From NCBI GenBank assembly GCA_015654675.1, contig JAATGM010000035.1, positions 1 to 64,000 on the forward strand: DNA of 64,000 nucleotides, in the 5' to 3' direction. Under the pieces are notes generated by a model that saw only the letters and a list, made by a program, of their open reading frames with translations, was not told the DNA's origin and did no database searches. The first letter of the stretch is position 1. Each line of letters begins with the position of its first letter. The translations under genes were made by a program, and so were the position numbers. Source of the DNA: Planctomycetota bacterium (GTDB lineage Bacteria; Planctomycetota; Phycisphaerae; UBA1845; UTPLA1). Below, piece by piece: positions 23,529 to 26,690 of the stretch.

Positions 23529-24374
23529 ATGCCAAACAACACATCCGATCGCGACCGCGCCCACAGCGCCTACGTCGCGGTCCATTCCGGCTGGGCCCGC
23601 TGGGAGGCCCAGTTCGTCGCCTTCACCTGGCCAGTCACGCTGCGCCTCGTCCTCGAATCGCGCCTCGCCGCCGGCGCGCGCGTCCTCGACCTCGGCTGCG
23701 GAACCGGTGAGCCCGCACTTGCCTTCGCCTCCGCCATCGGCCCGACTGGCCGCGTCACCGCGACCGACCTCACCGATGAAATGCTCAGTGTCGCCCGCGA
23801 CCGCGCCGCCGCCCTTAAAATCAAAAACGTCGATTTCGTCCACACCGCCATCGAAGACCTGAACTTCCCCGCCGCCTCGTTCGATGCCGTCGTCAGTCGC
23901 TGGGGCCTCATCTTCGCCGAAGATGTCCCCGCCCAACTCCGTCGCATCCGCTCCTGGCTCCGCCCCGGCGGCCGCATCGCCCTCGCGACATGGACGCCGA
24001 TGGAAGACTCCCCCGGCTTTCACGTGATGAACCAGGCCGTCTCCCGCCTGCTCAATCTCCCACCGCCCAACCCGGACGAACCGGGTATGCAGAATCTCTC
24101 GCGCCCCGGCGCCCTCGCCGCCGCCCTCCAATCCACCGGCTACAACGACGCACACACCGAATTCGTGAACCTGTGCACCGTCGTAAGAAGCGGCCAGGAA
24201 TACTGGGAACTCTCGCGCGACACCGGCGCATCACTCCGCGCTGTTCTCAATCGCATAACCCCCGATCAGCTCACCCAGCTCACCCGCGAAGTCTCCGACG
24301 CCGTCGAACGCTTCCGCTCCGGCGAACTCCTTCGCATCCCGGCCCTCGCACAGGTCGGCTCGGCCAGCGCATGA
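23529..24374 (+). CDS. Class I SAM-dependent methyltransferase
   Basis: A 281-residue protein with the SAM-binding motif GARVLDLGCGTGEPALAFA (about residues 46-64), motif II acidic residue in TATDLTDEMLSVARDRA, and post-motif VSRWGLIFAEDVPAQLRRI. The arrangement matches Methyltransf_11/25 enzymes of the UbiE/CoQ5-like type. The substrate is not predictable. It starts seven bases after the peptidase stop, so it is probably cotranscribed with it. Confidence 0.88.
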   Translation: MPNNTSDRDRAHSAYVAVHSGWARWEAQFVAFTWPVTLRLVLESRLAAGARVLDLGCGTGEPALAFASAIGPTGRVTATDLTDEMLSVARDRAAALKIKNVDFVHTAIEDLNFPAASFDAVVSRWGLIFAEDVPAQLRRIRSWLRPGGRIALATWTPMEDSPGFHVMNQAVSRLLNLPPPNPDEPGMQNLSRPGALAAALQSTGYNDAHTEFVNLCTVVRSGQEYWELSRDTGASLRAVLNRITPDQLTQLTREVSDAVERFRSGELLRIPALAQVGSASA

Positions 24375-24407: not shown

Positions 24408-25604
24408 ATGCCCGCCGATTCCCAGCACGTCCTCATCATCGCCGCCGGCGCGGCCGACGAGCCCGTCGAAATCCTCGACGGCCGCACCCCGCTTGAAGCC
24501 GCTTCGACGCCCGCCCTCGACGAAATCGCCGCCAGCGGCAGGCTCGGAACCATCCGCACCATTCCCCCCGGCTTCGCCGCCTCGCGCGACGTCGCAACCC
24601 TCGCCCTCTTCGGCTACGACATCCGCGACAGCTACAGCGGCTACGCCGGCCTCGAAGCCCTCGGCCGCCGCATCATCCTCCGCGAACACGAACTCGCCTT
24701 CCGCGCCAACCTCGTCAACATCACCGATGGCATCCTGGTTGACGTCAACGCCGGCGGCGTCACCGGCGACGAAGCCTCCGAACTCGTCATCGCCCTCGAA
24801 CAAGCCCTCGCCCCCAAAGGCGTGCGCTTCCACGCCGGCCTCGCCCATCGCGCCATGATGCTCACGACCAACGCGTGGGACCAAACCGTCTGCACGCCCG
24901 CCCACGACATGATCGGCGAACGCATCGATCGCCACTGGCCCAGCGGCCGCGGCGGACGCGAGCTCCGCGATCTGATCCAGTCCGCCCAGACCGTTCTCGC
25001 CGCGCACCCGCTCAATCGCGCCCGCGTAACCGCCGGCCGCCCTCCCGCGAACTCGATCTGGCCCTGGGGCCAGGGCGTGCTGCCCCGCGTGCAACGCTTC
25101 CGCGAACGCTGGCGATTACGCGGCGCAGCCGTCGGCGCAGTCGACCTCTTCCGCGGCGTAGCCCGCCTCGCCGGCCTCAATGTGCTCGACATCCCCGGCG
25201 CGACCGGCAGCACCGACACCGATTACGCCGCGAAAGCCGCCACCGCCACTGCCGCCTTGGACGACCACGACGTCGTCATTATCCACATCGAAGCCCCCTA
25301 CGAAGCCGCCCTCGCCGGCGACGCCCCCGCTAAGGTCCGCGCCATCGAAAGCATCGACGCCCGCATCGTCCAACCCGTCCTCGATCGCATCTCCCGCGCC
25401 GAGCGCTGGAGTCTCGCCTTCGTCGCCGACCTGCCCGTCAGCACCGAGCGCCGCCGCCAGGGCAGCGAGGCCGTTCCCCTTTGCCTCGCCGGCACGGCCG
25501 TCGCCGCCTCCGCCCGGCGCGACTTCGGCGAATCCGCCGCCCGCCAGTCCGACCTCCACATCGACCACGGCTGGGACTTCATGGAGTACTTCCTCCGCGT
25601 CTGA
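24408..25604 (+). CDS. ApgM-type phosphoglycerate mutase homologue with a degraded active site
   Basis: A 398-residue member of the archaeal-type 2,3-bisphosphoglycerate-independent phosphoglycerate mutase family. The scaffold is well kept: GRTPLEAASTPALDEIA, GRPPANSIWPWGQG, AVDLFRGVARLAG and GATGSTDTDYAAK. By alignment from memory, six of the seven metal/nucleophile positions differ: Ala13 for the Asp of DGxxD, Arg60 for the Ser nucleophile, Tyr298 and Leu302 for the DxxxH pair, Leu342 for the His of DH, and Gln351 for the last His. Only Asp341 remains. It is therefore probably not a mutase, but a pseudoenzyme or a protein with a new activity. It could bind phospho-sugars or regulate the real enzyme. 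Confidence 0.8.
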   Translation: MPADSQHVLIIAAGAADEPVEILDGRTPLEAASTPALDEIAASGRLGTIRTIPPGFAASRDVATLALFGYDIRDSYSGYAGLEALGRRIILREHELAFRANLVNITDGILVDVNAGGVTGDEASELVIALEQALAPKGVRFHAGLAHRAMMLTTNAWDQTVCTPAHDMIGERIDRHWPSGRGGRELRDLIQSAQTVLAAHPLNRARVTAGRPPANSIWPWGQGVLPRVQRFRERWRLRGAAVGAVDLFRGVARLAGLNVLDIPGATGSTDTDYAAKAATATAALDDHDVVIIHIEAPYEAALAGDAPAKVRAIESIDARIVQPVLDRISRAERWSLAFVADLPVSTERRRQGSEAVPLCLAGTAVAASARRDFGESAARQSDLHIDHGWDFMEYFLRV

Positions 25605-25664: not shown

Positions 25665-26690
25665 ATGCCGCGCATCGACGAAGCCCCGGCCCGATTGCTC
25701 CAGCTAATCCACTCGCAGTCCGAACCCAACAATACCGCCGCGACCCCCACCGGCGCTTCTGTCGCTGCCGACGCCAACCTCCTCGACGCCTACTCGCAAG
25801 CCGTCGTCAACGTCGTCGATCACGCATCCCCCTGCGTCATCGGTGTCTCGCCCCGCGGTAACGGCCGCGGCGGTCAGGGTAGCGGCTTCCTCCTCACACC
25901 TGACGGCTACGCCCTGACCAACAGCCATGTCGTCCACGGCCGCGCCAAACTCCGCGGCACGACGCGCGAAGGCGATGATCTCGACGCCACCCTCGTCGGC
26001 GACGACCCCGCCACCGACCTCGCCCTCATCCGCCTCGAAGCCCGCGACCTGCCCTTCGCTCAGCTCGGTGAGTCCGAAGCGCTCCGCGCCGGCCAGCTCG
26101 TCATCGCCCTCGGCAACCCACTCGGTTTTCAGTCCACCGTCTCCACCGGCGTCGTCTCAGCCGTTGGTCGCGCCATGCGAAGCCAGGAAGGCCGCCTCAT
26201 TGAAAACATCATTCAACACACCGCCCCGCTGAACCCCGGCAACTCCGGCGGCCCGCTGCTCGACTCGCGCGGCCGCGTCGTGGGCGTCAACACCGCAATC
26301 ATCCATATGGCCCAGGGCCTCGGATTCGCCGTCCCCGCCGCCACCGCGCGCTGGGTCGTCGGCGAGCTGATCACTCACGGCCGCGTCCGTCGCCCCTATC
26401 TCGGCATTTCCGTTGGTGTCGCCCCGCTCAACCGCCGCCTCGCCCGCGAACTCGACCTGCTCAACGACCACGCCGTTGAGGTCAACGCCGCCGACCCCAA
26501 CGGACCCGCCGCCCGCGCCGGCATCAGCGCCGGCGACCTCATCGTCGCCATCGACGACCGCATCGTCGCCACCGTCGACGATCTGCACCGCGCCCTTACC
26601 CGCGCCCCCGCCGGCCAGGTCCTTACGCTCACCGTCGTCCGCGACGATCGCCGCATTGAGGTGCCAGTCGAGATTCGATTCCCCGACTGA
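25665..26690 (+). CDS. HtrA/DegP-like serine protease with one PDZ domain
   Basis: A 341-residue S1C protease. The catalytic triad is visible as TNSHVV (His), DLALIRLE (Asp) and NPGNSGGPLLD (Ser). One PDZ domain follows (RPYLGISVGVAPLNRRL, then AGISAGDLIVAIDDR). Unlike most HtrA proteins there is no signal peptide or membrane anchor at the N-terminus (MPRIDEAPARLLQLIHSQ), so it may act in the cytoplasm. AGGAG lies about nine bases before the ATG. Substrates are probably misfolded proteins. Confidence 0.88.
   Translation: MPRIDEAPARLLQLIHSQSEPNNTAATPTGASVAADANLLDAYSQAVVNVVDHASPCVIGVSPRGNGRGGQGSGFLLTPDGYALTNSHVVHGRAKLRGTTREGDDLDATLVGDDPATDLALIRLEARDLPFAQLGESEALRAGQLVIALGNPLGFQSTVSTGVVSAVGRAMRSQEGRLIENIIQHTAPLNPGNSGGPLLDSRGRVVGVNTAIIHMAQGLGFAVPAATARWVVGELITHGRVRRPYLGISVGVAPLNRRLARELDLLNDHAVEVNAADPNGPAARAGISAGDLIVAIDDRIVATVDDLHRALTRAPAGQVLTLTVVRDDRRIEVPVEIRFPD

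Follow-up and report, generated by a model that had tools for sequence, protein, structure and literature searches.

An ApgM-fold protein with a dismantled active site, probably an inactive ThrB2-type homologue kept as a folded protein in a planctomycete

Results

The forward-strand gene at 24408-25604 encodes a 398-aa protein of the ApgM-fold family in which most active-site residues are replaced. We consider it probable that a ThrB2-type enzyme has here become inactive and has been retained in folded form following replacement of its pathway. The window, by which we mean the whole 64,000-nucleotide stretch that was analysed, belongs to the genome of a Planctomycetota bacterium (GCA_015654675.1), labelled G000 here. 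The genome most often set beside it, G105, comes from another genus of the same family (f1). A search of the G000 genome found no second copy of the gene, and a search of the accessible literature found no pseudoenzyme already described in this family. The gene, its neighbours and the seven site codons are as follows.

23529-24374 (+): class I SAM methyltransferase, upstream neighbour, 33-bp gap
24408-25604 (+): gene of the ApgM-fold protein, 398 aa, predicted inactive, of predicted ThrB2-type (TIGR02535) descent
24444-24446 (+): codon 13, Ala (GCC) for the metal-binding Asp; identical codon in G105
24585-24587 (+): codon 60, Arg (CGC) for the Ser/Thr nucleophile; identical codon in G105
25299-25301 (+): codon 298, Tyr (TAC) for Asp; Asp kept in G105
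25311-25313 (+): codon 302, Leu (CTC) for His; likewise Leu in G105
25428-25430 (+): codon 341, Asp, the only one of the seven that is kept
25431-25433 (+): codon 342, Leu (CTG) for His; Val in G105
25458-25460 (+): codon 351, Gln (CAG) for His; His kept in G105
25665-26690 (+): HtrA-type trypsin-like/PDZ protease, downstream neighbour, 60-bp gap

Site replacement and predicted fold

The reading frame begins with ATG, contains no internal stops and has a GC3 of 0.87. A mis-assembly or frameshift artefact was considered and rejected, given the single open frame, the GC3 value and the substitutions common to G105. The protein matched both Pfam PhosphMutase and Metalloenzyme past the Pfam cut-offs. 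It scored above the cut-off for TIGR00306 (apgM; 372 bits, cut-off 320), and below the cut-offs for TIGR02535 (389 bits, cut-off 446) and PRK04200.

To read the site columns, the protein was aligned to over 80 non-redundant homologues that have an intact site. The homologues read D-S/T-D-H-D-H-H across the seven columns, whereas the 398-aa protein reads A13 R60 Y298 L302 D341 L342 Q351, which confirms the preliminary description's count of six changed metal-binding or nucleophile positions out of seven. Elsewhere in the protein, 50 of 60 near-invariant positions are kept, compared with one of the seven in the site (Fisher p = 0.0005), so the replacement is not just general divergence of the protein. 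Several of the ten non-site changes flank site motifs or are conservative (T344V, P345S, V262I, I118V), and the kept conserved residues include R99, N101, R148, H166, D167, D246, K276 and E295. The order-wide alignment also contains a large subclade of intact copies in which the nucleophile is Thr, not Ser.

The AlphaFold2 model has a mean pLDDT of 95.6 and matches the archaeal ApgM of Pyrococcus (2zkt) over its whole length (TM 0.84/0.87; Z 47.7, rmsd 2.5 Å over 369 residues for 2zkt_B). Together, the conservation counts and the model agree with the earlier claim of a conserved fold bearing a dismantled catalytic site. With its catalytic residues lost and its fold, as modelled, kept, the protein is a candidate pseudoenzyme. 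Compared with archaeal ApgM (TIGR00306; 2zkt, 3kd8, 3idd), it has the same full-length fold and passes the family cut-off, but lacks the nucleophile and the two-metal site. ThrB2/TIGR02535 proteins of the BT2402 type align over the full length and share its scaffold motifs and lineage context, with ~40–47% identity to intact members from the same order; the differences are the six replaced residues and the score under the family cut-off. Classical iPGM (GpmI) shares the alkaline phosphatase superfamily core (Z ~22), yet carries another inserted domain. The GpmI of G000 itself is a separate, intact protein whose known site motifs, read by eye, are kept, and it would cover the glycolytic step.

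Because both metal sites and the nucleophile are lost, neither a phospho-Ser/Thr intermediate nor two-metal binding would be expected, and we infer from the sequence that the protein is inactive as a two-metal phosphotransferase. Eight Asp, Glu, His or Cys residues have been gained at columns that rarely hold one, and none of them, by this sequence proxy, lies inside a site motif; H7 is the closest to the site motifs in sequence, and H147 takes the place of an invariant Tyr. Ligand rescue by distant residues keeps some small likelihood, the pocket having been judged from alignment columns. As a guess, a salt bridge between R60 and D341 might replace a metal. The protein could also still be an enzyme by some other chemistry, metal-poor or metal-free, in which Arg60 could hold a phosphate and the conserved residues named above would be put to use. 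Such an enzyme would suit G105, which has no other recognised homoserine kinase, but it would have to work with the nucleophile and both metal sites gone, no gained residue in a site motif, and site positions that vary within the ortholog pair. We therefore regard it as very improbable.

A partly dismantled ortholog in a sister genus

A match was detected in 87 of the 114 genomes of the order. The closest relative of the 398-aa protein is the G105 gene, at 55% identity. No ortholog beyond G105 scored above the canonical level in a class-wide search of 397 genomes, and a wider contig scan found no closer one, only canonical relatives from other phyla. Orthologs with the same substitutions were proposed earlier as a check, and G105 answers it in part: A13, R60 and L302 are shared and position 342 is again not His (V342), whereas D298 and H351 are retained, along with D341. 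The dismantling is therefore conserved in its core only. Since iPGM independently places G000 and G105 as sisters, the losses common to both are most simply ancestral; A13, R60, L302 and a non-His residue at 342 would date to the common ancestor, with Y298 and Q351 added later in the G000 lineage.

The G105 gene is flanked by glcDEF-like genes and pyruvate kinase, and canonical copies in five further genomes (G103, G104, G106, G108 and G113) likewise precede pyruvate kinase. This linkage, common to G105 and the canonical f1 copies, identifies the same locus by synteny. The G000 gene instead lies between the methyltransferase and the HtrA-type protease, so the locus was moved or rearranged in G000.

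Other dead-site copies in the order

In f3, dead-site copies with other substitutions were found in G025, G027, G007 and G013 and, as an additional copy, in G020; G077 (f8) likewise has one as its second copy. The preliminary description had held that random variation at the site positions would speak against its reading, and such variation was seen in part, as the f3 dead-site homologues vary freely. Quick trees joined these f3 copies to the G000/G105 pair with a support of 98, at a meeting of long branches. A clade of the pair with the canonical f1 copies was not rejected and outscored the free tree (p-AU 0.66). The dead-site copies may have arisen once or several times; one ancient clade uniting the pair with the f3 copies was not adopted, as long branches meet there and synteny and the clade test allow the pair to descend from f1 copies.

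In three f3 loci (L156:9883-11070, L157:8994-10184 and L158:8713-9903) the dead-site homologue precedes apparent VgrG genes, with LysM/PAAR-like genes after these in L156 and L157. The degenerate second copy of G077 (L143 / L159:8118-9356) has S13, C60, E298, R302 and G351 and adjoins murE/murF-looking genes. Single-site variants, D13N and D13G, were observed in two-copy genomes (L070, L114). Separately, contig C26 of G000 encodes a PF00300 histidine-phosphatase-fold protein (L068:1474-2100, +) whose RHG catalytic motif reads PWG; it apparently lacks the catalytic His, and its gene comes after pgk-like and rpe-like genes.

Rate of evolution and constraint

Selection was estimated from the G000/G105 pair, that is, from two genera, with one genome of the G000 genus. 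The pair has a dN of 0.36, compared with 0.14 for their iPGM and ~0.17–0.20 for canonical pairs. Its dS is saturated, and omega = 1 was rejected (2dlnL 236). The stem branch of the pair measures 0.68 against 0.13 for iPGM, and the end branches 0.64 and 0.46, where iPGM has 0.25 and 0.17 (~2.6 times iPGM), while canonical pairs run at ~1.3 times iPGM. Both genes thus evolve at about twice the rate of canonical copies with their frames open, so the pattern is one of a burst at the time of site loss followed by faster yet constrained evolution. It speaks against plain decay and identifies no role. The faster evolution is also compatible with partial relaxation.

These rates bear on whether the protein is a relic, a redundant enzyme without a present role that is drifting to loss with its frame still intact by chance. 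The doubled rate and the stem burst would fit a relic, as would the differences between G000 and G105 at site positions 298, 342 and 351 and the many genomes of the order that lack the gene. Neutral drift since the split should, however, have left stops, and instead both genes are open at saturated synonymous divergence, with 55% identity, most of the scaffold residues intact and omega = 1 rejected. A relic is accordingly unlikely. Of the earlier proposal of a pseudoenzyme with a selected non-catalytic role, retention under purifying selection is borne out and a specific role is not; a selected non-catalytic role of some kind is likely.

Ancestral function

TIGR02535 is titled 'proposed homoserine kinase' in TIGRFAMs, and the family has been put forward as a homoserine kinase substitute; BT2402 mutants require threonine, and BT2402 did not rescue a thrB mutant of E. 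coli (PMC7311316). In gut genomes, ThrB2 and ThrB are complementary in occurrence (PMC9026213). Every A1 member matched TIGR02535 strongly, and the canonical relatives in the order fit TIGR02535/ThrB2, as predicted homoserine kinases. In two f7 genomes, as read from the sequences, the canonical gene comes directly after a putative homoserine dehydrogenase gene, and an aspartate-kinase-like gene is close by. The canonical f1 gene has pyruvate kinase and sel genes around it and no threonine genes.

True ThrB was found in 11 of the 114 genomes (at least 156 bits; nine over the cut-off), none of which has an intact ThrB2-type copy. This exclusion has a Fisher p of 6.5e-7, not corrected for kinship, and a within-family product of 3.9e-6. 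Another 24 of the 114 genomes have neither ThrB, an over-cut-off HSK2, nor an intact ThrB2-type gene. G000 has a thrB-thrC-hom-lysC operon that reads complete. Within f1, one ThrC class, defined by score and match range only, accompanies intact ThrB2-type copies (G104: fragments only), and by the same measure it was not found in G000, G105, G107 or G110. HSK2 (TIGR00938) did not exceed its cut-off anywhere in the order and was dropped as a replacement in G105. Having no ThrB either, G105 has no recognised homoserine kinase; replacement by ThrB cannot explain its loss, and only loss of the pathway would.

The preliminary description named the protein a phosphoglycerate mutase. The ApgM fold stands, TIGR00306 being passed, and a mutase ancestor is probably wrong, since the canonical relatives go with TIGR02535/ThrB2 and G000 has its separate iPGM. 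A genuine phosphoglycerate mutase as ancestor, superseded by iPGM, would be in keeping with the pyruvate kinase beside the f1 gene and with the presence of iPGM in all six genomes whose sole detected ApgM-type copy is degenerate. But iPGM is also present in 59 of the 81 genomes with non-degenerate copies, so it does not predict degeneration and was rejected as the cause of the loss, and the ThrB exclusion and the hom/lysC context indicate threonine synthesis. Mutase descent thus appears quite improbable.

Discussion

On the ThrB2-type reading that we favour, the 398-aa protein would descend from an ApgM-fold phosphotransferase of the TIGR02535/ThrB2 type whose native function was lost in the ancestor common to G000 and G105. 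The site would have gone in order, first Asp13, the nucleophile, His302 and His342 in that ancestor and then Asp298 and His351 in G000, where the complete thrB-thrC-hom-lysC operon would now supply the pathway. This different threonine gene set may be why the activity could go while the gene stayed. As purifying selection has maintained the frame, the fold and the conserved residues outside the site, persistence as a non-catalytic protein is most likely, for example as a phospho-metabolite binding protein or a partner protein. The substitutions, the predicted fold, the co-occurrence pattern, the thr operon and the constraint are observed; that pathway replacement drove the loss is inferred, as is any present role. 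Against this stand the unproven status of the ThrB2 activity itself, the 24 genomes with neither ThrB nor intact ThrB2, the f1 context free of threonine genes, the score below the TIGR02535 cut-off and the undated order of site loss and operon acquisition.

The ThrB2 fold may even have given rise repeatedly, after pathway replacement, to metal-free proteins that sense phospho-metabolites or act as partners, in the f1 pair and in the f3 group beside VgrG. We hold this broader idea to be speculative and on balance unlikely; if true, it would make the passage from displaced enzyme to pseudoenzyme a recurrent route in the order. That none of the 114 genomes combines ThrB with an intact ThrB2 lends new and independent weight to the proposal, as yet unproven, of homoserine kinase activity for ThrB2. 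The 398-aa protein is a natural example of a fold that has outlasted the apparent takeover of its reaction; the sister genus preserves an intermediate stage.
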